64,000 bases of DNA from Acidilobus saccharovorans 345-15 (GCF_000144915.1 NC_014374.1:62001-126000); one strand, 5' to 3'; counted from the first letter of the stretch, positions 12,610 through 33,071 are shown. Translations and numbers: made by a program. The notes: generated from the sequence alone by a model not told the origin.

Positions 12610-13290
12610 GTGGCCTACACCTTTGAGGGCCCCCTGAGGGAGGCCAGGGTGAGGGGGAGGCCCAACAGGTTCCTCGTTATACTTGATGACGGCACTGAAT
12701 GCCACCTCCACGACCCAGGGAGGCTGAGGGAGCTCATATACCCCGGCAACAGGGTCCTCGTGAGGCCCACCAGGGGGCTGAGGACGTCCTGCTCAGTGAC
12801 GGCAGCGTGGTCAAACGGCAGGTGGGTGGTGGTCGACAGCAGGATCCACAACAGGGTCGCCTCCCTCTTCCTGCCCCCTGAGGCCACGCCGGAGGTCAGG
12901 GTCGGGGACAGCAGGCTGGACTTCAAGTATGACGACACCTACGTCGAGGTGAAGGGCTGCACCCTGGTAGTTGGCGGGGTCGCGCTCTTCCCCGACGCGC
13001 CCACCGAGAGGGGCAGGAGGCACGCAGAGGAGCTGGCTAGGCTGAGGGAGGAGGGCCACGGGGCCACGATGATGTTCCTCATAATGAGGGACGACGCCCT
13101 CTGCGTGTCCCCCAACTGGTCAACGGACCCAGCGTTCTCCTCGCAGTTCGTCAAAATGGTTGAGGCGGGGGCTAGGGTGGAGGCCCACAAGTTCAGGCTT
13201 GAGGGGAACAGGCTGATATACGTCGGCGACGTGCCCCTCTGCGACGGCGTCCTCAGCGGGATGCCAAGAGCTCCTCCAGCAGCCCCCTGA
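12610..13290 (+). CDS. sfsA: SfsA family protein (sugar fermentation stimulation protein homolog)
   Basis: A nucleic-acid-binding OB-like N-terminus (RFLVILDDGTECHLHDPGRL, residues 21-40) is followed by a nuclease-like core: DSRIHNRV, then DFKYDDTYVEVKGCTL with the D-x(n)-E-x-K catalytic-like arrangement, then FPDAPTERGRRHAEEL. These segments are diagnostic of SfsA. The length of 226 aa is standard. The biochemical role is unsettled in the family; a nuclease is suspected. GTG start at 12610. It overlaps the convergent phosphoesterase gene by 38 bp. Confidence 0.9.
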   Translation: MAYTFEGPLREARVRGRPNRFLVILDDGTECHLHDPGRLRELIYPGNRVLVRPTRGLRTSCSVTAAWSNGRWVVVDSRIHNRVASLFLPPEATPEVRVGDSRLDFKYDDTYVEVKGCTLVVGGVALFPDAPTERGRRHAEELARLREEGHGATMMFLIMRDDALCVSPNWSTDPAFSSQFVKMVEAGARVEAHKFRLEGNRLIYVGDVPLCDGVLSGMPRAPPAAP

Positions 13291-14602
13291 CCCTGGTTAT
13301 GTCTATTACGCCCATGTCGCCCCTGCTGACCGTGCCCTCCGGGTCGTACACCGAGAGCACCCCGAGCCAGTCGTGCATGGAGTCGTCAGGCCCCTTGTCG
13401 TTCCTGTCCGTGTAGTTTGAGGGCCACCCGACGGTGCCTATGGGCCTCCAGTTGAGGTCGTCTAGGTAAACGGTGAGGTCCGGGGCGTCGCCCTTGGCAA
13501 CAGGGTATATCTCCTGCGGCTCGTAGGCCTCGTTCCTCCAGGCCTCCCCGTTAGGCCCCCTTATCTTCATGATGGCCCCCTTCACCTCCCTGACCAGGTC
13601 CTCCAGCTCCTCCCTGCCAACTATGCCGTGGGGCTCCCTGCCCCTCACGTTGAAGAAGAAGCGGGAGTAGTAGCCTCCCCATGCCCAGACCCTGGTGTGG
13701 TCCCAGTCTATAATGTCTGGCGTCAGGTCCGTGCCGGGGGACCTCGGCCTCTCCTTAAGCTTCAGGTAGCCCTCCTGCTCGAGCCACTGGTTTATTGCGA
13801 AGGCCCCGTGCATCGACTTTGTGCCGTGGTCGCTGACTATCACTATTATCGAGTCCCTGAGGGGACCCCTGGCCATCTCCTCAAGCCATGAGTCGACCCT
13901 GCTGTAGACCTCCGGTATCACCCTGCTGTAGACCTCGTGGTAGGTGTACCTTGGGTGCCTCTCGTCGAAGTACTTCCAGAAGGCGTGGTGGGCCCTGTCT
14001 ATGCCTATCTCCACGTATATGAAGGCGTCCCAGGCCTTGCCCTCGGCCAGGTACTTCACTATCCTGCCGTGGTTCTCAACCATCGCCAGCAGGTCCCTCC
14101 TGGCGGCGTCCCTGTCCTCGGTCCTGTAGACGATGTCGAACAGCGGGTCGCCCACGCTGGACTGGAGCTCCTGCCTGAGCCAGGGCGGCCACGTGTAGGG
14201 CTTCTGCGGGCCCGGCGTGTTGAAGTCGGTCACCATGAAGCCGTTGAGCGGCCTGGGAGGGTACGTCGGGGGGACCCCGAAGAGCCCGAACCTGAGTCCC
14301 CTCCTGCCCAGGTCGTCCCATATGGCAGGCTCCCTCACGTCCTGCGACGTGACCACGTAGGAGTCAAAGGTCCCCGGCCTCCTGTGCCTGAAGCCGTAGA
14401 TTCCCAGCTCGCCCGGGCTCCTCCCCGTGAACATGACCATCCAGGCGGGCACGGTTATGGGAGGGTGGCAGGTCCTCATGAGGTACCTGGCGGAGTCCTC
14501 GACGAGCCCCCTTATGAACTTGAAGCCCCCGCCGTCGTGGCCCTCGTAGAGGACATATGGCGGCAGCGAGTCAAGGCCCAGGACGAACAGCCTCCTGGCC
14601 AA
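13253..14602 (-). CDS. Alkaline-phosphatase-superfamily phosphodiesterase/phosphatase
   Basis: Metal-dependent enzyme of the type I phosphodiesterase/nucleotide pyrophosphatase group. Landmarks: VLGLDSLPP (first metal Asp, residue 10), the nucleophile region PPITVPAWMVMFTGRSPGE (about residues 48-66), DRAHHAFW and IVSDHGTKSMHG (late metal-binding His/Asp). Length 449 aa, TTG start, no signal peptide. It has the same layout as the gene at 37771-39237, so the window holds two paralogs. The physiological substrate is unknown; a nucleotide-sugar or phospholipid role is compatible with the glycan neighbours but not shown. Confidence 0.82.
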   Translation of the reverse strand: MARRLFVLGLDSLPPYVLYEGHDGGGFKFIRGLVEDSARYLMRTCHPPITVPAWMVMFTGRSPGELGIYGFRHRRPGTFDSYVVTSQDVREPAIWDDLGRRGLRFGLFGVPPTYPPRPLNGFMVTDFNTPGPQKPYTWPPWLRQELQSSVGDPLFDIVYRTEDRDAARRDLLAMVENHGRIVKYLAEGKAWDAFIYVEIGIDRAHHAFWKYFDERHPRYTYHEVYSRVIPEVYSRVDSWLEEMARGPLRDSIIVIVSDHGTKSMHGAFAINQWLEQEGYLKLKERPRSPGTDLTPDIIDWDHTRVWAWGGYYSRFFFNVRGREPHGIVGREELEDLVREVKGAIMKIRGPNGEAWRNEAYEPQEIYPVAKGDAPDLTVYLDDLNWRPIGTVGWPSNYTDRNDKGPDDSMHDWLGVLSVYDPEGTVSRGDMGVIDITRVRGLLEELLASR

Positions 14603-14662
14603 AGCGCCTCACGGGTTGCCTTGATGCCTGGAGGGTTAAATAAGTGGAGCCCTGCCAGGCGA

Positions 14663-14713
14663 CGGGAAGAAGAAAATTAAATAAAAATATAAAAATAATA
14701 AAAAGAAAAAGTT
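14663..14713 (-). terminator. T-rich terminator after the S-layer-like gene
   Basis: On the minus strand this 51-nt stretch downstream of the gene is dominated by runs of T, the usual intrinsic termination signal in Crenarchaeota. The unusually long tract suits a highly expressed transcript. Confidence 0.7.
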
Positions 14714-14729
14714 GGTTAAGTTAGGGCCC

Positions 14730-17700
14730 TCAGAACTTGGCGAAGGCCACGTATGCTATCAGGGCCAGGGCTATTATGGCGACTATCAGCGCGCCGAGGC
14801 TGTAGGTCGCGGCCGAGGCCGCCGTTGAGGCCGCGCTGTGGGCCTCACTCTCAGCGCCTGAGGCCGTGCTGCTGAGAGAGCTGAGCGTTGAGCTCATGCT
14901 TGTGACAGTGCTGCTTATTGAGCTTACTGTGCTGCTCACGCTGTTAAGGGTTGAGCTCATGCTTGTCACGGTTGAGCTTATGGAGCTGACAGTGCTGCTC
15001 ATTGAGCTTACTGTGCTGCTGAGCGAGCTGAGGCTCGAGGCCACGCTGCTTATCGTTGAGGCGGCAGAGCTCACTGTGCTGTTGACGCTCTGCAGCGACG
15101 AGTATATGCCGCTGAGGTCGCTGGCCACGGTGTTAACGGTGCCCTTTATGGACTCCACGTTGCTTGCTATGGCGCCCAGCTGGCCTCCCAGGTTAGTTAT
15201 GTCGGTCTCCAGCGTGTTGAGCGAGGCGTTCACCGCGCTGAAGTTGCCAGCTATGTAGCCGCTCAGCGTGGACTCAGCGGTGCCTATCTCTGATGAGAGC
15301 ATTGAGGCCTCGGAGGCTATGGTTGAGTTGAGGCTCGAGACCTTGGTTGAGAGGCCGCTGAGCATTGAGGCCATGGAGGCGTAGTCCTTGGCTATCGTGG
15401 CGTTGAGGCCTGAGACCTGGGTTGAGAGGCCGCTCAGCTGCGATGAGAGGCCCGCGTACTCGCTCCTGACCGTTGAGTTGAGTCCCTGCAGCAGCGAGCC
15501 TATCTGGCTCTCGAACTTGTTGAGGGCAGCCTGTATAGCGGTTGTGTTGACCTGCACTACGCCAGTCGCCGCGGCCGCCTCGCCCGTGAACTGCTCGCCA
15601 GTGAATATGTACGTGGCAGTCTGCGTCACGGTCACAGCCAGGGTCCCTCCGGTCACGTTGCTCGGCAGTACTATGAAGTACACGTAGTAGCCCGGTATCG
15701 TGGTCACGTACATTATGTCTGAGGACGGCAGCTGCTCCACGCCGGTCGGCGTGCTTATGTATGCAGCAATGACAGGCTTCGAGAGCACGAAGAAGTCGGA
15801 GGTGTAGGTCACCGGCAGGCCGAGCACCGGCACCTCGGTGGGCACCAGCACCTCAACCGGGGAGCCGCTGGCCGAGGCAGGCGCCACTACCTGCACCTGC
15901 ACTGGGTACGCTGGCAGGGTCTGCACGAAGTAGAGCGTCACCTCGCCCGGCGCTATGGTCCTGGTCACTGTGACCGGCGGTATGGCTGTCTGCGGCACGT
16001 ATGGTCCAGTTATGCTCTCGCTTATCGTGTTGTAGCCTGGGCAGAGCTGCAGCGTCACGCCAGCCTGCAGGGTTGAGCCCACGCCAGTGAGCTGCAAGTT
16101 GAACAGGGTGCCGTTGATTATGTAGCCTATGGGTACCTGCACTAACGCCAGGCCGCACAGAGTGGTTACATTTATGTACACGGGCAGTGAGTACGGGTTC
16201 TTCAGCGTCTGCGTGGTGTTGTAGCTTATCGGCGAGCCGAAGATGTACTCGGTGAACGGCGTGCCTACAAGGGTCAGCAGGTAGCCTGGGCTCGTGAGCA
16301 GAGGCGACAGCTTGACTATCACGCTTCCGTTGTAGTGCGTGAAGTTGGTCAGCAGGTAGCCTATCGAATACTGCCCAACGAGTATGTCAGCGGCCCTCGC
16401 CACGAAGACGCCGGTGTAGCTCGGGGTTGAGCCCGCCTGCACTGAGGCGTTGTATATGCTTATGTTGTACGCGTAGTCGTAGGCGTTAGGTATGTACGCC
16501 GCGGTTCCCGGCAGGTTCGGCACTGGCACGTTGTAGAACACTCCGTAGCCTCCGGCGTACCAGGTGCCGCTGAACGCCTTGTCGTCGAACGGGGTTACCT
16601 GGGATATGTTCACTCCTGCGAAGTAGTACTCCGACAGCGACGGCGAGGACATGTTGAACTGCAGGACCACGGTGCCGTACTTGCCTGTGCTCACGTTGGC
16701 AGTGAAGCCTGCGCCTGCGACCACTACTGTGCTTATCTCGCCCTCCGAGGCGGGTATGAGCGGCGCGGTCATGTTAGTTATGTACTGGGTTGCCTCGTAT
16801 GGGTACTTCAGCAGGAAGCTCGGCAGCATCACCTGGCCGAGCAGCCCGGTGACTATGGGCGTTGGGCCGAAGACCTCAGGCGTCGGGTTGACGTATACTA
16901 TGGCGTTGCCGGAGTGCTCGCTTATGGGCACCGTGAAGCCGCTGGCGTTCGTGGTCAGGGACGTGTAGGTCGGGTTCGCCACGGTTACAGGGTAGGTGCC
17001 TGGGGCCTTTGAGAACACATTGAGGTAGAGGCTGCCGCTCACAGGCACCTGGCTTATGTAGGCGAAGTCGCCGTACGTGTCAGCTGCCACCAGGGAGCTG
17101 CTGAGCGGCGCCAGCGTTGAGGAGTACGTCGAGTACGTCATGACTGGGTACTCGGCCGGCGCCAGGGACGTGGTGAAGCCGAAGCCCCTCACGAGCAGGT
17201 AGTTGCCGAGCAGCAGGTAGTTGCCAGTGGCGGTGGTATTGAAGTAGAACATGCCGTACCTGTTGCTGGTGAAGACCTGGTAGAACGGGTACACCGGGAC
17301 GCCTGCTTTATTGTACCAGAGCGTGTCGTTGGCTATGAAGTTGTACGGGCTTATGGTCCCTGACACCACTATCGGCGAGTAGTGCAGCTCGTACTCGAGG
17401 CCCAGGTAGGAGAGCGGGTAGTAGGGCGCGTTGGGTATGAGGCCATAGAATGACCCGGAGCCGCTTAGCGGCGACACTATGTACGTGAACGAGTAGTTGG
17501 CGAAGGTTAAGCCAAGGGACTCAACGAAGTAGCCGCTTGAGGTGTAGAAGCTCTCTGAGTTCTCCTCGGCCGGGTAGAGGTACGGGCTGGTCGGCAGGAG
17601 CGTGTCGTTGCCTATGGCCGCCACCGCGGCGAAAGTGGTGTCCTCAGGCACGTCGTAGATTTCGAAGGTAAGCATGTCGCCTGGGTTGAGCTGGCCTGTT

Positions 17701-18884
17701 GGACCGGCAACGCCTGGGCTCTCTGAGACTACCTCAAAGCTCGGGAATATGTTCAGGGTCCCGTAGGTCGTGTTTGGCGTGAAGAGGCCGTAGGGCCTGA
17801 AGGTCGACGGGCTCACGCCGTAGTTCGTGAGGCTGTAGTTCACTGGGCTGAAGGTCACGCTGCCAGTGCCGTAGGTGTAGGTGCCGCTGGGCTCAAGCTT
17901 CACGTACGCGGTGCTGCTCGTCCCGATGGTTATCGATGTCGCGCTGCTAATTACGTTGAGCTGGAAGGCGCTCATGTTGAAGTAGCTTGTCATAGCGCCC
18001 GACTTGAGGTGGACGGCGTTTGTGAGGGCCGGCAGTATTATGCTACCCGAGAGGAGGGTGCCGGATATGCCCAGCGAGGGCGGGGTCGCGCTGGAGTTTA
18101 GACTGACTGAGCTGAAGACGTCTGACGATGTGGTTGGGTAGTTACCCCCTATCAGGAGAGACCCGGTCGTCACGCTGAAGTTCGAGAAGGAGCCATATAG
18201 GTCGTAGTCCATTTTGTTGCTCACTACGTCGCTTATTATGCCTGAGGCGAACTGGTTGGCGCCAGTGACGTTGAGGAAGGCCTTGTTGGCCGTTGTCACC
18301 TGGGCTATTGGCACGTAGCTCAGGTTGTTCATCGGCTTAATTGTGACTTTTATCATTGGCTTTATGGTCAGGTTGAATGGCCCAGCCGCTATCGCTGGCG
18401 CTGAGCCTCCATACTGCACGGGCGCGGCCGTCGAGTACTTAAGGTAGACGAGGGCCCATCCCTGGGTGATCAGGTCTTTGAGCACCGTGGTTTCCTTAGT
18501 TGCCCCTGCGGAGAGGGCGTCCTCTGAGGAGCCGTTGGTGCTCAGGCTCCAGAGGAAGTTGTACACGTCACCGGCTGATATGGTAATGTTGCCTATCACT
18601 GCCGTCACGTTGCTGGTCGAGAAGGCGGGAGTTATAGCGACGTCGCCGTAGTAGACGTTTGGCAAGCCGTTGGCGGAGAGGTATATGTGGGCCTCAGCTC
18701 CCTCGTAAGCTGGCGACAGGTTGAAGGCGAACTCGACCATGCCGTTGACGCTGACCTCCTTGGTGAATACCTTGCCAGTTCCTGGCTGCAGCGAGTAGGC
18801 CTTGGCTGCCGCCGCCCCCAGCAGGGGGGCGAGCAGCACCAGGGCCAGGACTACCGCTGCTAGGGCCTTATACGATCTCAACAT
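14730..18884 (-). CDS. S-layer-like surface protein with coiled-coil stalk and C-terminal membrane anchor
   Basis: 1384-aa secreted protein. Signal peptide about residues 1-27 (VVLALVLLAPLLGAAAAKA). Residues about 30-1110 are beta-rich, Thr/Ser/Tyr/Gly-rich with many N-glycosylation sequons and few Cys. Residues about 1115-1345 switch to an alpha-helical stretch with repeats such as SSLSSTVSSMSSTVSSISS, a long coiled coil. Residues about 1358-1381 form one membrane segment with a short tail. In Sulfolobales, two proteins (SlaA canopy and SlaB stalk) share these jobs; here canopy-like and stalk-like parts are in one chain. No homology to SlaA/SlaB can be claimed from reading alone. Starts with ATG and an AGGTGAG site 2 nt upstream; TATA at 18926-18934. 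Confidence 0.72.
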   Translation of the reverse strand: MLRSYKALAAVVLALVLLAPLLGAAAAKAYSLQPGTGKVFTKEVSVNGMVEFAFNLSPAYEGAEAHIYLSANGLPNVYYGDVAITPAFSTSNVTAVIGNITISAGDVYNFLWSLSTNGSSEDALSAGATKETTVLKDLITQGWALVYLKYSTAAPVQYGGSAPAIAAGPFNLTIKPMIKVTIKPMNNLSYVPIAQVTTANKAFLNVTGANQFASGIISDVVSNKMDYDLYGSFSNFSVTTGSLLIGGNYPTTSSDVFSSVSLNSSATPPSLGISGTLLSGSIILPALTNAVHLKSGAMTSYFNMSAFQLNVISSATSITIGTSSTAYVKLEPSGTYTYGTGSVTFSPVNYSLTNYGVSPSTFRPYGLFTPNTTYGTLNIFPSFEVVSESPGVAGPTGQLNPGDMLTFEIYDVPEDTTFAAVAAIGNDTLLPTSPYLYPAEENSESFYTSSGYFVESLGLTFANYSFTYIVSPLSGSGSFYGLIPNAPYYPLSYLGLEYELHYSPIVVSGTISPYNFIANDTLWYNKAGVPVYPFYQVFTSNRYGMFYFNTTATGNYLLLGNYLLVRGFGFTTSLAPAEYPVMTYSTYSSTLAPLSSSLVAADTYGDFAYISQVPVSGSLYLNVFSKAPGTYPVTVANPTYTSLTTNASGFTVPISEHSGNAIVYVNPTPEVFGPTPIVTGLLGQVMLPSFLLKYPYEATQYITNMTAPLIPASEGEISTVVVAGAGFTANVSTGKYGTVVLQFNMSSPSLSEYYFAGVNISQVTPFDDKAFSGTWYAGGYGVFYNVPVPNLPGTAAYIPNAYDYAYNISIYNASVQAGSTPSYTGVFVARAADILVGQYSIGYLLTNFTHYNGSVIVKLSPLLTSPGYLLTLVGTPFTEYIFGSPISYNTTQTLKNPYSLPVYINVTTLCGLALVQVPIGYIINGTLFNLQLTGVGSTLQAGVTLQLCPGYNTISESITGPYVPQTAIPPVTVTRTIAPGEVTLYFVQTLPAYPVQVQVVAPASASGSPVEVLVPTEVPVLGLPVTYTSDFFVLSKPVIAAYISTPTGVEQLPSSDIMYVTTIPGYYVYFIVLPSNVTGGTLAVTVTQTATYIFTGEQFTGEAAAATGVVQVNTTAIQAALNKFESQIGSLLQGLNSTVRSEYAGLSSQLSGLSTQVSGLNATIAKDYASMASMLSGLSTKVSSLNSTIASEASMLSSEIGTAESTLSGYIAGNFSAVNASLNTLETDITNLGGQLGAIASNVESIKGTVNTVASDLSGIYSSLQSVNSTVSSAASTISSVASSLSSLSSTVSSMSSTVSSISSTVTSMSSTLNSVSSTVSSISSTVTSMSSTLSSLSSTASGAESEAHSAASTAASAATYSLGALIVAIIALALIAYVAFAKF
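14866..15080 (-). repeat. Degenerate tandem repeats encoding the Ser/Thr coiled coil
   Basis: Segments such as TTGAGCTCATGCTTGT (14889 and 14951) and ATTGAGCTTACTGTGCTGCT (about 14917 and 15000) recur. They code for the SSTVSS-type helical repeats of the S-layer-like protein. Confidence 0.65.
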
Positions 18885-18925
18885 GGCTCACCTATGCTTG
18901 GCCAGACTACTTGGTCTCCATTGAG

Positions 18926-18934
18926 GTATTTAAG
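18926..18934 (-). promoter_or_regulatory. TATA box of the S-layer-like gene
   Basis: CTTAAATAC on the minus strand places transcription near 18904, about 20 nt upstream of the ATG, with an AGGTGAG ribosome site in the leader. Confidence 0.6.
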
Positions 18935-19010
18935 AAGTAACACCCGGGTATGCGGCACATAGAATCCCACCTGTGGGATAGGGGTTATGCGCCCGCCCTG
19001 GAGAGGGACT

Positions 19011-21842
19011 TCAGCCCTCGGGGGCCACCAGGTAGATAATACCGAGCCTCCCCTCGGCCCTCACTTCAACGCTGCCCTCAAGGGGCCGCGGCGAGAGCCC
19101 CAGGTACATGTTGCCCCCCGCCTTGAAGGCGACCAGGTAGGCGGTGCCGTTAACCTCAGCGCATGAGATGACCGTAACGTTGAGCTGGGTCACGTTAACC
19201 TCCACGAAGGCCCCCTCCAGGGCCAGGGCAGCCCACGCTATAAGCTTGGCCGGGGCCTCAAAGGCAGTAACCTCGCCGCCGGCCTCGCTGGCCACCTCCA
19301 TTGCCCTGAGCGAGTAGTTGTAGGCCCCTAAAGCGTAGGCGGACCCCTGGCCCCCCTCAAGGAGCTCCGCCTCGGCCCTTTCTAGCAGGCCCACCGCCTG
19401 GCCCAGGTAGGCGTAGGCCTGCACGGAGGCCCCTCCGGCGGCCGCGTCCTCCTGGGCCTCGGAGTAGAGCTCCCCCATCCTCAGGGAGGCCATCATCAGG
19501 GAGCCGCTCAGGTTGCTTACGAGCGGGGCCAGCGACGAGATGAGCTCGACGGGCCCGCCGCCTGTTACCCCCTGGGTGAGGGCCTCGGCCCTTGAGGCGT
19601 AGGCTTCAGCCTCGCTGTAGTTCCCCTCTGCGGCGTAGCCCGCCGCCTCGGAGTCAAGGTAAAGGGCCCCGCCCAGGTCCCTCCAGTCAGCTGAAGCCTG
19701 GGAGGCCCACGAGCCCACCTGGCTCACCTGGTCAAGGGCCTCGGCCTGGAGCCCCCGCAGGGGCGCGCTGGCGTTTACTATTGCCTCCACGTCCCTCGAG
19801 GCCGCCAGGAGCGTCGCGTTGAGCCACGGCAGGTTGGGCGTCCCCCTCACGGCGGCTGAGTAGTTGCCTATCCCCGCCGCCTTGGCCGCGGAGGCGTTGG
19901 CCAGGATTAAGGCGCCGCTGTAGTTGCCCAGGTATGCCTGCCCCAGGGCCTCCCCGAGCAGAAGGGATGACCATGCAGCGTAGCTCAGCTCGCCGAGGTC
20001 AGCGACGGCCTGGGAGAGCTGCTGGGCCAGGCTGGGGTCCTTTGAGTAGGCCACGTCCTTCAAGCCGACAACGTAAGGGGCCGCCTCCCAGAGGTAGCCA
20101 GTAGCGTTGGCCAGGGCGCCGCCCGCCTGGGGGCCCGTGACGTTGAAGGCCTCGGCGTCCATGAGCAGCGACATGGAGAGCAGCATGGTGGCGTTAGCGG
20201 CCTCCTTAAGGTAGGGGACGTACTTCGACGGCGGGGTCGGGTACTGGTTCACGGCGTAGTTTATGTAGCCGTCGAGCGAGGCTATGGCAGCGCTGACGTT
20301 TCCCAGCAGCTCCCTCACGGGGGCGCTGACGTATATGTAGTAAGTCGTGGCGTCCTGGAGGGCCTCATCCGCGAGCTGCTGGGAGGCCGAGGAGTACTCA
20401 AGGGTCAGGCCGTCGTTGCCGCCTATGTAAGCCGTTATGGCCAGGGACGTGTTCCCAAGGGCCTCGTAGTCGAGCATGGCCAGCTCTGAGGCCTGGGCGC
20501 GGGAGGCCCTGGCTATGGAGGCCGAGAGGCTCAGGTTCGCCCCGCTCCCGTTAACTACGGCCACGAGCTCGCCCAGGGCGGAGGCCAGGGACTCAAGCGA
20601 GGCCGTCGCGCTCCTGACGTAGGGGCCCTGGGGGGAGGCGTTGACGTAGTTGATTAGCTTAAGGGCGCTGGAGAGCGCTGCGTTGCTGAAAGCTGGCGTC
20701 GCCCCAGTTGACATCCTGCCCAGGGCCTGCTCTACGAGCAGGTAGGTCTGGTTCAGGTAGCCCATGGCCTGGCTCAGGTTCTCATAGGCGGCCTGGAGGC
20801 CTAGGCTCACGTTGACGCCCGGGAGCCGCTGGGCCACAGCAACGATGTCAGCCAGGGCCCGGCTTATGTTGCCCTCCAGCTGCCCAGGCCTGAGGCTCGG
20901 GGCGCTGCAGTTCCCGGGCTCCCTCAGCAGGTACTCCTCCTCGAGGGCCCCCTGCAGGCACGAGAGGGCCGAGGAGGCGTTTGAGAGCTCCTTCATTATG
21001 ACCGCGTACGTGGAGTTCAGGGCGCTGGTCTCGTTGGCGGCCCTGGCCAGGAGCCCCTCGGCGAGGCTTAAGTTGGCTGAGACCTGGGCGGCCACCCGCT
21101 CCCTGAAGCTCATGTTGAGGAGCGGCTGCAGCTGCTGGGCGCTCCTGTTTATGAGGGCCAGCAGCGAGTAGAGCTCGACCAGCTGCCCCGGCGACGTGAC
21201 GTTGGCGCTTGACACGAGCAGGTAGAGCTCCTCAGCCTCGCTGTACATGTTTGCCCTGGCCTCGCCGCTTGCCGTGGCGTTCAGTTCCAGCACGTCGCGC
21301 TGGGCCAGGGAGAGAAGCTGGGCCAGCCCCTCCGACAGGCCAGACGATGACATGGCCGCCGAGTACCCGCTGGCAAGCCCAAGGCCCCTGAGGCTCACGC
21401 CCAGGGAGCCGCTGTAGTTGCCCTGGGACAGCAGCGCGTAGGCCTTGGCAGCGTAGGACTCCAGCGCAGAAGAGTACGTGGAGTTGAAGCGGAGCGAGGA
21501 GGCAAGGTACTCCAGCACCGCCAGGTATCCCGCGGCCTCCGCCCAGGGGGCGGGCCTCGGGGACTGGGCCCTGAGGTACAGGTATGAGGCCTCCATCACG
21601 CGCAGGCTCAGCTCCTCCGCGCCGGTGTAGTTGCCCTCGGCGTACAGCTGGAGGGCCCTGGAGAGCGTGGCGTTGAGGGAGCTCACGTTAGCCCCGTAGG
21701 CCCTCAGCACTGAGAGGTCGGTCGAGGCTGCGCTCAGCTGAGGGGGCGGCGAGGAGGCCGGGAGCGACAGGGGGACTGCTGCCAACAAGATGAGCAGGAG
21801 CAGTGAAGCCGCGAGCAGCTGCCTGGGCCTCAAGCGGTTCAC
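19011..21842 (-). CDS. Large secreted helical protein with TPR-like EGNYSEA repeats
   Basis: I do not recognise this 943-aa protein. It has an N-terminal signal sequence (LLAASLLLLILLAAVPLSL, about residues 9-27). The body is almost entirely alpha-helical, rich in Ala, Leu, Ser and Tyr, with repeating elements such as YAEGNYTGAEELSLR, LSQGNYSGSL, YLGNYSGALILANAS and YAAEGNYSEAEAYASRAEAL, which resemble TPR helices. Many N-x-S/T sequons point to glycosylation. The last 60 residues look beta-rich, and no C-terminal membrane segment is visible. The GTG start overlaps the stop of the small Thr-stalk gene (GTGA), so the two are translationally coupled. A surface partner held by that anchored protein is an attractive inference. 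Confidence 0.65.
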   Translation of the reverse strand: MNRLRPRQLLAASLLLLILLAAVPLSLPASSPPPQLSAASTDLSVLRAYGANVSSLNATLSRALQLYAEGNYTGAEELSLRVMEASYLYLRAQSPRPAPWAEAAGYLAVLEYLASSLRFNSTYSSALESYAAKAYALLSQGNYSGSLGVSLRGLGLASGYSAAMSSSGLSEGLAQLLSLAQRDVLELNATASGEARANMYSEAEELYLLVSSANVTSPGQLVELYSLLALINRSAQQLQPLLNMSFRERVAAQVSANLSLAEGLLARAANETSALNSTYAVIMKELSNASSALSCLQGALEEEYLLREPGNCSAPSLRPGQLEGNISRALADIVAVAQRLPGVNVSLGLQAAYENLSQAMGYLNQTYLLVEQALGRMSTGATPAFSNAALSSALKLINYVNASPQGPYVRSATASLESLASALGELVAVVNGSGANLSLSASIARASRAQASELAMLDYEALGNTSLAITAYIGGNDGLTLEYSSASQQLADEALQDATTYYIYVSAPVRELLGNVSAAIASLDGYINYAVNQYPTPPSKYVPYLKEAANATMLLSMSLLMDAEAFNVTGPQAGGALANATGYLWEAAPYVVGLKDVAYSKDPSLAQQLSQAVADLGELSYAAWSSLLLGEALGQAYLGNYSGALILANASAAKAAGIGNYSAAVRGTPNLPWLNATLLAASRDVEAIVNASAPLRGLQAEALDQVSQVGSWASQASADWRDLGGALYLDSEAAGYAAEGNYSEAEAYASRAEALTQGVTGGGPVELISSLAPLVSNLSGSLMMASLRMGELYSEAQEDAAAGGASVQAYAYLGQAVGLLERAEAELLEGGQGSAYALGAYNYSLRAMEVASEAGGEVTAFEAPAKLIAWAALALEGAFVEVNVTQLNVTVISCAEVNGTAYLVAFKAGGNMYLGLSPRPLEGSVEVRAEGRLGIIYLVAPEG

Positions 21843-22587
21843 CTCCTGGTCACGGCCACGGAGACGGCTATGGCCAAAGCCACCAGGACCACCACTATTG
21901 TGACGTACCTGAAGACGTCCGACGTGGGCTTCGGCGTCGTCGTGGTTGTCGGAGTGGTAGTGGTTGTCGTGGGGCTGGTCGTCGTTGATGTAGTGGCTGT
22001 AGTAGTTGTAGACGTGGTTGTGGTTACGGGCTTAGTCGAGGTTGTCGTGGTGGTAGTGGTTGTTGTGATCGTGGTTGTCGTGCTAGTCGTTGTCGTGGTA
22101 GTTGTAGTCGTAGTCGTTGATGTGGTCGTCACGGGCTGCGGGGTCACGTAGAGCGTGAGGTTGCCCGGCCCGGCCAGCAGGGTCGTCACGTTTACCAGGG
22201 TCGCGTTGGCGCCTGAGTAGTAGACCAGCACGCTGCCGTTGGCCACGCTCACGTAGGTCCTGTAGGGGAGGTACATCCAGTAGGCGGCCACCGCCCCCTG
22301 GACTGAGCGGGGGGCAGGTAGACGCTCACGTTAACCGTGCCTGGGCTGAGCACCGAGACCTGCAGGGTGCCGTTTGAGTACTCAGCGTAGAGGCTCCCGA
22401 CTCCCTGCTCATAGGCCGCATACGAGTAGGGCTCAGCGCACAGCGGCAGCTTAAGGAGCTGCGGGGCGGAGGTCACGTTGAAGCTCAACGCCTCCACCGC
22501 GCCGACGTAGCTCACTTCAACCTGGGCGTGGACTACGGGCAGGAGGACAGCCGCGATGACTATCAGCAGGACCGCCCACCTAATCAT
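21839..22587 (-). pseudogene. Thr-stalk membrane-anchored surface protein, reading frame broken
   Basis: Two overlapping frames together make one sensible 249-aa protein. The first (22587 to 22249) has a signal peptide (AVLLIVIAAVLLPVVHAQ) and a beta-rich domain. The second (22291 to 21839) continues the domain, then a Thr-rich stalk (nt about 21930-22135), a membrane segment (YVTIVVVLVALAIAVSVAV) and an RR tail. The break falls next to homopolymers G6 (22309-22314) and C5 (22294-22298). Adding one base there restores a smooth join with sequence of the type LPPRSVQGAVAAYWMYLPY. It may be a sequencing error, a recent mutation or programmed frameshifting. It lies immediately upstream of the 943-aa gene, overlapping it by 4 nt. 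Confidence 0.75.
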
Positions 22588-30290: not shown

Positions 30291-33071
30291 CTAGCCCTTG
30301 ACCCACCAGAAGTACGCGTAGTCGTCAATGCCTCCCCACATGGGGTTCTCCTGCCACGATATCATGCCCATGTAGCCGTGCATGTACGGCTTCGTAACCA
30401 TCAGCGCGTTCTGGTATATCGTGTAGACGTACATGTAGAGGCTCATCGCCTCCTGCTCGGCCTGCCTGTAGAGCTCATACGCCCCCGTGTAGTTGCCAGC
30501 TATATCATAGTAGTTCGCAACACCTATGGTGTTGTTCATGTTAATGTACTCCACCGCCTCCTGCCAGAGCCACCTGCCTATCTCAGGCTCGACGCTCGGG
30601 CTCAGTCCCGGGTAGCTTACCCTTGACTGATTGAAGTACGCGCTGAGGTTCTCAAGGTAGGTCGCGTTCCAGCCGTCCGGCAGGGCGTAGTCCCCGGCCT
30701 CCAGGTACATGCCGTTCATGAAGTCGTCAGCCATTGGGTAGTCGGCGCTCCAGTACCAGTAATATATAGGCAGGCCGTTCTGCCCTGGAACCTGGTATGC
30801 CTCGATCACCGCCTGGGGCAGGTACATTGGCACAGCGTTTATGTTCGGGTCTATGTTGTGGAGGGCCGCGGCCCACATCTGGGCGGCGGTGTAGTCGGTG
30901 GTGTCGCCGCTTGATATCACGATGGGGAAGTAGACGCTCACGTTGTAGAACCCGCTCTCCTCCAGCAGCTGCTTAGCGTATGTGAGGTTGAAGGTGGGGC
31001 AGCCCGTGAGCTCAGAGGGGGGTATGTAAATGTCAAGCCCTGGGACCAGGGCTCCGCAGTAAAGGCTGCCGAAGTTGAAGTGATACTTCACGTTGCCGAC
31101 TATGTCGTCTATGTACTCGGTGTAGTTGAAGGCGTAGGCGAAGGCCTCCCTGACGAGCGGGTTGGCGAAGTACCAGCCCGGTATGTGGTAGGCCGGGTTG
31201 AGCTGGGAGAGCAGGGACTCGTTGACCTGAAGGTTGAAGGCGAAGAACCACTCAAGCAGCGAGGGCGAGAAGGAGTAGATGACCGCCTTGCCCTGGGACT
31301 CAAGCTGAAGCAGCCTCGGTATGTAGCTTGTCGGCAGGTTCGTCACTATGTCGGCCTGGCCTGAGGCGAACAGCTCGTAAGCTGTCGTCGGGTCCTTGAC
31401 CCACTCTATGATAACGGTGTCGTTGGGCCTCGGGAAGTAAGTTATGTTCGTGGGCCAGTACGGGTTAGGCTTGAGAACCACGCTCTGGCCCGGAGTGTAA
31501 ACGGCTATGTAGTACGGCCCGGTGAACCCAGCGCTTGGGCCCGAGGGCCACTGGACCGCCGTGTTGTAGCTCCCCTCGCTGCAGGTCTGCTCGTAGCTGT
31601 AGAAGGCCTCCGCCAGCTGGGTGAGGTTGTGGTCGTAGAGCCCAGTGAAGTTTATGCCGTCCCCCACCTCCTCAAGCCACTTGGCGTCAAGGATCGAGCC
31701 GCCCTGCGGGTCTGCAAGCGCGTCAAAGAACGCCACGGGGCCCACGGGCCTCACCAGGTGGAACGTCACGGTGTCGGTGGCGTTGTCGTAGGTTATGGCG
31801 TTCACGATCTCCTCCGCGCCCTGAGTGTCGTTGGGGGAGGTCACAACGAAGGTGAACGGCGTGTAGTTGGGTATGAGGTACTGGGTGAGTATCCAGCCTG
31901 GCGTGCCGGGAGTGCCGCCGGCGCAGAGCATGTCCCTTATGACGCTGTACCACACGTCATAGGCGGTTATCGGGTCGCCGTTGGCGGCCCTGAGGCCTGG
32001 CCTGACCTTGAAAACGTAAACAGTGTAGTTCGGCGATATGGCCCCGTAGAGGTGCCTGGCGGTCACGTTTGACCAGTTGCCCACGGTAGGTATGTACTCA
32101 GCAGCCATGGGTATGAACTTGGTAGTGTTAGCCCCAAAGTACTCTACGAGCGTTGAATAGACGTTAAGGAGCACCTCAAAGCCTATGTTGCCGTAGTCTA
32201 TGTCTGGGTCGAAGCTGAAGGGACCTCCTGGCACGTTCTTAGCTACGACTATTGTTCCAGGGTTCGGAAGGTCGACGTCAAGCTTAAACATGGAGAACCT
32301 CAGGCCCCTGGACTCGACAGCCACGGTCTGCGTGTAGCTGTAGTTGAAGGTCTGGCCGCTTGACACGTTGAGCGTCTCTATGGTCAGCGTCAGCGGGTAG
32401 AGGCCGGGCTCGCTGAAGCTGACGTTCACCGGGTCCTCGGAGGGCCTCAGGTAAGTGTAGTTGCCGGTATCCAGGTACGCCGTGTAGTTCCTTGGGCTCA
32501 CCTCTATTGTCGTGCCGTTGCCGAGGCTGAGGAAGTATTTGTATATGGTCATGTTCTGCCCCGAGGGCGGCTGAAGGTAGCCTATGAAGACACTGACCCT
32601 CTGCCCAACATCAAAGACTGGGGTGCCGTTTAAGCCGCTCACCGCAATTACCGGCACGCTGACCTCCTGGGACAGCCGCCCGCTGACGTTGGGGGTCACC
32701 AGGACCTCTATGAGTTCCTGCGACGTGGAGGCCACGACCCTGCCCCCCTTCATGAGCGCGTAGTATATCAGGTACCTGCCGGGCCACCTGTAGCTTACGG
32801 TCAGGTAGTCGCCCCTGACCGTGACGCTGGAGCCGTTGCCCAGGAACACCTCAGCCGAGTAGCCCGCCGGCGACGGTATGTAGAGGCTGAGCTGCTGGCC
32901 CGCCACCGCTGAGTAGGTGCTGGGGGCCGGCGGGGAGAGCTGCAGGACCGTGCGACTTCCCTGGGACCTTGTATGTTGGACGTAGGAGGCCGCCAGGGCA
33001 GCTACAACCACTAGTATGACAACGATTGCAAGGACCTTAAGGCGCACGCCGCTCCTATATCCAGCTTCCAC
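30291..33071 (-). CDS. Orphan family-5 ABC substrate-binding protein, N-terminally anchored
   Basis: 926-aa extracellular binding protein. A membrane anchor occupies residues about 11-29 (LKVLAIVVILVVVAALAAS) with no clear cleavage site, so it is held by its N-terminus. A beta-rich N-terminal region (about 40-260) precedes the SBP_bac_5 core, which shows LRAANGDPITAYDVWYSVIR, NPYWPTN and VREAFAYAFNYTEYIDDIVG. No Dpp-type permease adjoins it: the neighbouring importer (33157-37647) is of the sugar type with its own binding protein. GTG start close to a TATA element (33102-33111), giving a nearly leaderless transcript. Many sequons. It may feed the permeases at 11-2461 or others outside the window. 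Confidence 0.85.
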   Translation of the reverse strand: MEAGYRSGVRLKVLAIVVILVVVAALAASYVQHTRSQGSRTVLQLSPPAPSTYSAVAGQQLSLYIPSPAGYSAEVFLGNGSSVTVRGDYLTVSYRWPGRYLIYYALMKGGRVVASTSQELIEVLVTPNVSGRLSQEVSVPVIAVSGLNGTPVFDVGQRVSVFIGYLQPPSGQNMTIYKYFLSLGNGTTIEVSPRNYTAYLDTGNYTYLRPSEDPVNVSFSEPGLYPLTLTIETLNVSSGQTFNYSYTQTVAVESRGLRFSMFKLDVDLPNPGTIVVAKNVPGGPFSFDPDIDYGNIGFEVLLNVYSTLVEYFGANTTKFIPMAAEYIPTVGNWSNVTARHLYGAISPNYTVYVFKVRPGLRAANGDPITAYDVWYSVIRDMLCAGGTPGTPGWILTQYLIPNYTPFTFVVTSPNDTQGAEEIVNAITYDNATDTVTFHLVRPVGPVAFFDALADPQGGSILDAKWLEEVGDGINFTGLYDHNLTQLAEAFYSYEQTCSEGSYNTAVQWPSGPSAGFTGPYYIAVYTPGQSVVLKPNPYWPTNITYFPRPNDTVIIEWVKDPTTAYELFASGQADIVTNLPTSYIPRLLQLESQGKAVIYSFSPSLLEWFFAFNLQVNESLLSQLNPAYHIPGWYFANPLVREAFAYAFNYTEYIDDIVGNVKYHFNFGSLYCGALVPGLDIYIPPSELTGCPTFNLTYAKQLLEESGFYNVSVYFPIVISSGDTTDYTAAQMWAAALHNIDPNINAVPMYLPQAVIEAYQVPGQNGLPIYYWYWSADYPMADDFMNGMYLEAGDYALPDGWNATYLENLSAYFNQSRVSYPGLSPSVEPEIGRWLWQEAVEYINMNNTIGVANYYDIAGNYTGAYELYRQAEQEAMSLYMYVYTIYQNALMVTKPYMHGYMGMISWQENPMWGGIDDYAYFWWVKG

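Follow-up and report, generated by a model that had tools for sequence, protein, structure and literature searches.

Most surface layers (S-layers), or at least many archaeal ones, are built from a single protein that carries both lattice and anchor segments, with Sulfolobus as the exception (PMC12175726, PMC8559796, PMC6911244). In the two-protein SlaA/SlaB system of Sulfolobaceae, SlaA has neither stalk nor anchor, and SlaB forms a trimer (PMC10903991). In tetrabrachion from Staphylothermus marinus, one gene product supplies both the outer body and a long stalk of coiled-coil type, and cleavage turns it into two chains (PMC5744192). In this study, we examined a 64,000-nucleotide stretch (the window; bases 62001-126000) of the closed 1,496,453-base genome of the thermoacidophilic archaeon Acidilobus saccharovorans 345-15, and within it an open reading frame of 1384 amino acids that begins with ATG and runs from 14730 to 18884 on the minus strand. 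We consider it quite probable, judging from its sequence, that this gene encodes the main S-layer glycoprotein as one chain, anchored to the cell by its own heptad coiled coil. This names the likely S-layer protein of Acidilobus, one member of which hosts surface-attached Nanoarchaeota symbionts (PMC4935971). The preliminary description of this DNA had also presented a one-protein S-layer as an unusual design. Here it has to be corrected: the reviews cited above call such a design the usual one, and tetrabrachion is a precedent, so the claim of novelty is weak. What is new is the family to which the body belongs, and the single-chain design is remarkable only by contrast with the two-protein system of other members of its order.

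In its coordinates and anatomy, the preliminary description proved right: the protein has 1384 residues, a signal peptide, a body, a stalk and a single C-terminal helix. The only strongly hydrophobic helices span residues 7-25 and 1363-1381. The protein contains 36 sequons in total, 29 of which fall within residues 31-1110 of the body, against 12.1 ± 3.0 in shuffled sequences; this bears out the claim of a sequon-rich body and suggests that the body is glycosylated. By contrast, the 7 sequons of the stalk are near chance (5.2). Serine and threonine make up 40% of stalk residues 1111-1350. Lysine and arginine are scarce in the protein (2.5%), which could make it hard to detect after trypsin digestion. 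Residues 1213-1345 give a spectral peak at a period of 3.50 residues with a power of 40.8, a value reached by none of 1000 shuffles, whereas the power at the 11/3 period is 1.9. Across 18 consecutive, unbroken heptads, the residues at the two core positions are FLILVVLLVILVVVLVVL and VLLIIVIVAVLMIMVIML, all of them hydrophobic, with one alanine among them. Periodicity is looser in the preceding residues 1111-1212 (peak at 3.60) and absent from the body. The stalk is therefore a true heptad-type coiled coil, in agreement with the Ser/Thr coiled coil of some 230 residues described earlier, and the reading frame, the helices and the heptad analysis together place body, stalk and anchor on one chain, as had been proposed. 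No Pfam domain was found in the protein outside the coiled coil. The C-terminal region, whose end reads LGALIVAIIALALIAYVAFAKF, has no PGF archaeosortase motif of the kind seen in haloarchaeal-type S-layer glycoproteins. Matches of the stalk to baculovirus PEP, DUF1664, SMC, MCE and other Pfam or NCBIfam models were rejected as generic coiled-coil matches.

The best match to a solved structure is the stalk and membrane end of SlaB from S. acidocaldarius (8qox_B; residues 1250-1376, E 1.9e-7). SlaB (8qox chain B; NF040788) and the protein described here both have a heptad coiled coil rich in Ser and Thr, with a single membrane helix at the C-terminal end; in SlaB, beta domains precede the stalk (PMC6911244). 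Such likeness could mean that the gene encodes stalk and anchor only, as a long counterpart of SlaB, with the canopy formed by a separate lattice protein. We regard this as unlikely. The body comprises about 1085 residues, compared with roughly 300 in SlaB, making it more than three times longer, and, at the level of sequence comparison, no sign of the two or three SlaB-type beta-sandwich domains was seen before the coiled coil: neither a SlaB-body query nor the SlaB model positions before 300 find a match at the S-layer gene. Moreover, split pairs elsewhere are adjacent genes, whereas the neighbours here are a phosphodiesterase and a helical protein, and no SlaA partner gene was found with several different queries. 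With SlaA (NF041073), the protein has in common that it is large, secreted and sequon-rich, and presumably forms the lattice.

The search for a second S-layer protein bears on the same question. The NCBIfam SlaA model NF041073 found no match in the Acidilobus genome, while its S. acidocaldarius control was positive; a SlaA query and the SlaB-body query, both taken from L044, likewise found none in this genome, and nor did a profile built on SlaA-like proteins of four further families. The SlaB model NF040788 meets the genome through coiled coils only, best at the S-layer gene (model positions 308-411), and its coiled-coil part also matches in 14 of 14 control genomes. A separate SlaA/SlaB pair, set out beforehand as the observation that would count against a self-anchored lattice, was thus not found by homology in the closed genome. 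Large secreted proteins were additionally surveyed in 34% of the genome, sampled as 511 kb with 419 open reading frames, a coverage that leaves some room for the separate lattice protein considered above. Within this sample, the candidate is the longest secreted sequon-rich protein, and it has the highest Ser+Thr content and the lowest charge of the sequon-rich set; no other large secreted sequon-rich protein resembling a lattice protein was seen there. Apart from the helical neighbour at 19011-21842, which has no known domain, the remaining proteins of at least 860 residues comprise three solute-binding proteins and one each of protease, GH57 glycosidase and PEGA-domain protein.

The whole protein is common to three Acidilobus-type genomes (G000, which is the present one, G054 and G037), with identities of 58-59% (L041) and 54-55% (L043) for the full-length orthologs. 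The L043 ortholog is frameshifted immediately upstream of the membrane helix, so that the helix is encoded in a different frame. Beyond these, searching 229 genomes of the class with the body yielded nothing convincing save fragments in one additional Acidilobus-type genome. At the corresponding position, adjoining the same phosphodiesterase-family gene, the sister genus (G046, L045) encodes a protein of 1273 residues. This protein shares 44% identity with the 1384-residue protein in stalk and anchor, and its body is recognised by a three-sequence profile with E 3.7e-7, with 200 shuffled copies all scoring below -6 bits. The LGALIVA...AYxAFAK motif of the C-terminal helix is kept in the Acidilobus-type genomes and in the sister genus. 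By these comparisons the body changes quickly and the anchor little, a pattern that S-layer proteins show in general (PMC8559796). The phosphodiesterase gene adjoins the S-layer gene in 8 of 8 genomes examined (G000, G054, G037, G147, G046, G075, G143 and G162). In four of them (G147, G075, G143 and G162), a draft contig ends within the S-layer gene (L071, L072, L073 and L094), which may point to variation at the population level or to repeats that break assembly.

Structure prediction, proposed earlier as a check, succeeded in one part of the body only. For residues 26-1225, AlphaFold with a four-sequence alignment reached a mean predicted local distance difference test score (pLDDT) of 30.6, so the body as a whole is poorly modelled. 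For residues 858-1130 the mean was 44.4, and the sole usable block, which consists mostly of strands, lies at about 995-1092. Foldseek found nothing significant for this block (best E 0.016), many of its matches being beta-sandwich surface proteins. From its composition and this one all-beta block of about 100 residues in a low-confidence model, a beta-rich body is plausible. A structural likeness of the block to the beta-sandwich of SlaB is conceivable.

Several points weigh against the gene encoding the main S-layer protein. Lattice formation and abundance are read from sequence signs; no domain is recognised in the body, for which both AlphaFold models are poor; two thirds of the genome were covered by homology only, so an unrelated lattice protein that has no known relatives could be encoded there; and the genome encodes a second stalked, membrane-anchored surface protein. 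The latter, a protease of 1297 residues (L039:5899-9792; 639.9-643.8 kb on the chromosome), has 40 sequons, a subtilase-superfamily match, a coiled coil and a C-terminal membrane helix, and its ortholog (L042:2905-6924) has a Pro-kumamolisin domain. Its presence means that a coiled coil and a membrane helix alone do not indicate an S-layer, and it lends some substance to the idea that the 1384-residue protein has a minor role at the surface, as a stalked adhesin or a receptor-like protein. Nevertheless, all eight genomes examined in the genus and sister genus have the gene at this one position; given this, the signs of expression described below and the fast evolution of the body, we think the idea very improbable.

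The same protease is relevant to the comparison with tetrabrachion, here made by description. Both systems have a single gene product with a body and a coiled-coil stalk, but the tetrabrachion stalk is right-handed, with an 11-residue repeat and four chains, whereas the repeat in Acidilobus is 7 residues. Tetrabrachion also carries a stalk-bound protease of the subtilisin family, and the Acidilobus protease, with its own coiled coil, belongs to the same broad superfamily but is not adjacent. As the two chains of tetrabrachion derive from one gene product (PMC5744192), the Acidilobus chain might similarly be cut after export into lattice and stalk chains that stay together. This would be a variant of the self-anchored S-layer protein rather than an exclusive alternative, and in that case "anchored by the same chain" would hold for the gene but not for the mature protein. 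No recognisable cleavage site was found, however, and the protease gene is distant, near position 640 kb of the chromosome, making this variant fairly unlikely.

If the gene does encode a self-anchored S-layer protein, the chain would be exported by Sec and N-glycosylated, and its C-terminal helix would stay in the membrane as the anchor. The heptad coiled coil would join chains, probably three by analogy to SlaB, in a stalk at most about 35 nm long (about 235 residues at 0.15 nm per residue), and the length of this stalk would determine how wide a space separates the lattice from the membrane. The bodies would then touch sideways to form the lattice. One chain in the Acidilobus lineage would thereby do the job that SlaA and SlaB share in Sulfolobaceae.

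Signals around the gene are in keeping with such a role. The very long T tract and the ribosome site noted earlier are both present, and the former is the richest of the window, being the sole stretch with at least 30 T in 50 nucleotides on either strand of the 64 kb. The TATA-like box is present at 4 of 4 orthologous loci. The palindrome upstream of it is intact at L041, altered at L043 and at most half visible at L045. A 25-nucleotide pattern around it (18965-18989) occurs once in G000 and once in G054, each time at the S-layer gene, and no further copies with up to 3 mismatches were found elsewhere in these two genomes; the palindrome is probably a dedicated regulator site. In its departure from the expected effective codon number, the S-layer gene ranks third among 66 genes, and its fraction of C-ending two-fold codons is 0.96, against 0.87 for the pooled genes, with nine other genes higher. 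T tract, promoter and codon bias would suit a highly expressed, individually regulated gene, although they are no proof of protein amount. The anchor end, the palindromic promoter and the phosphodiesterase neighbour together provide a marker locus for finding fast-evolving S-layer genes in relatives.

The split arrangement with which the preliminary description contrasted this gene is real, both in Sulfolobaceae and in several other families of the order. Adjacent slaA and slaB genes are found in Sulfolobaceae at L044 (2646-6419 and 6482-7912) and L053 (2547-6629 and 6667-7917). In other families, SlaB-like proteins recognised by the SlaB model adjoin large secreted proteins that have no anchor (L117-L121), and these five large partners are mutually homologous. 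A profile built from them has strong members in families f2, f3, f4, f5, f7 and f8, and in one Sulfolobaceae genome (G022) it gives a weak match (E 2e-6) next to the genuine SlaB. No match was found in the Acidilobus genome or genus, and the family yields a single marginal one (E 0.008). By homology, then, split pairs occur widely across the order, and none was found in the Acidilobus genome. No SlaA homologs are known outside Sulfolobales according to PMC5744192; the pairs beyond Sulfolobaceae may be new, though the order as used here is the wider one of GTDB. Single-chain proteins also occur in related families: those at L048, L049, L050, L078, L083 and L084 share with the Acidilobus protein a signal peptide, a large body, a heptad-like coiled coil and a C-terminal helix, while their bodies have no sequence relation to the Acidilobus body. 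Large secreted proteins of 1298-1409 residues, lacking a membrane helix, beside such genes (L048, L050, L078, L082 and L084) were considered as SlaA-like partners and rejected, as Pfam matches on two of them and mutual homology identify them as S8 proteases. Their position recalls the STABLE protease and tetrabrachion. With the pair widespread, and the Acidilobus family without it but with a self-anchored chain whose body has no sequence relation to either partner, it is quite conceivable, if not yet probable, that the order has switched between split and single-chain S-layers. Since pairs exist beyond Sulfolobaceae and none was found in the Acidilobus family, the two designs can be compared inside one order, which, if such switching occurred, would provide a natural experiment on what makes S-layers divide or fuse.

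Table 1. Features of the predicted S-layer locus (window positions) and related loci in other genomes
Feature	Position	Strand	Basis or remark
Predicted S-layer protein gene, 1384 amino acids	14730..18884	-	Open reading frame; full-length orthologs L041:7520-11644, L043:7826-12463
Predicted signal peptide, about residues 1-25	18810..18884	-	Hydrophobic 7-25, mean hydropathy 2.62
Sequon-rich body, residues 26-1110, putative lattice part	15555..18809	-	Sequon excess
Predicted membrane-proximal beta domain, about residues 995-1092	15609..15902	-	AlphaFold block, pLDDT 70-83
Coiled-coil stalk, residues 1111-1345, with heptads becoming regular at 1213	14850..15554	-	Period 3.50 peak; 8qox_B match
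C-terminal membrane helix, residues 1363-1381	14742..14798	-	Mean hydropathy 2.82; conserved motif
Shine-Dalgarno-like AGGTGA	18888-18893	-	Read directly
TATA-like box TTAAATAC	18926-18933	-	Conserved upstream of orthologs in L041, L043, L045
Palindrome TCCCACNNGTGGGA, upstream of promoter, probable regulator site	18965-18978	.	Unchanged in G000 and G054; differs in G037
T-rich tract, probable transcription terminator	14654..14725	-	35 T in 50 nucleotides
Phosphodiesterase/pyrophosphatase-family gene, downstream	13253..14602	-	Pfam PF01663, 8.3e-42
SlaA-like/SlaB-like pairs outside Sulfolobaceae	L117:3881-9171, L118:3205-8788, L119:4407-9157, L120:7078-12672, L121:7845-12052		

As for the genes nearby, a role of the PF01663-family neighbour in modifying S-layer glycans or lipids is conceivable from its family. 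The upstream neighbour (19011-21842, minus strand) encodes a helical protein of 943 residues with 37 sequons and a signal peptide, without membrane anchor or Pfam match; it also adjoins the S-layer gene in G054 (L041:11768-14434) and is thus possibly S-layer associated. Next to it, overlapping frames of 112 and 150 residues (21839-22587, minus strand) look like one Thr-rich membrane-anchored protein that is frameshifted near a run of five G; their counterpart at L041:14610-15431 is a single open frame of 273 residues. Finally, the family 5 solute-binding proteins encoded at 30291-33071 (minus strand) and at L115:9741-12326 have about 30 sequons each and are extended at the N terminus by a PKD-like part.

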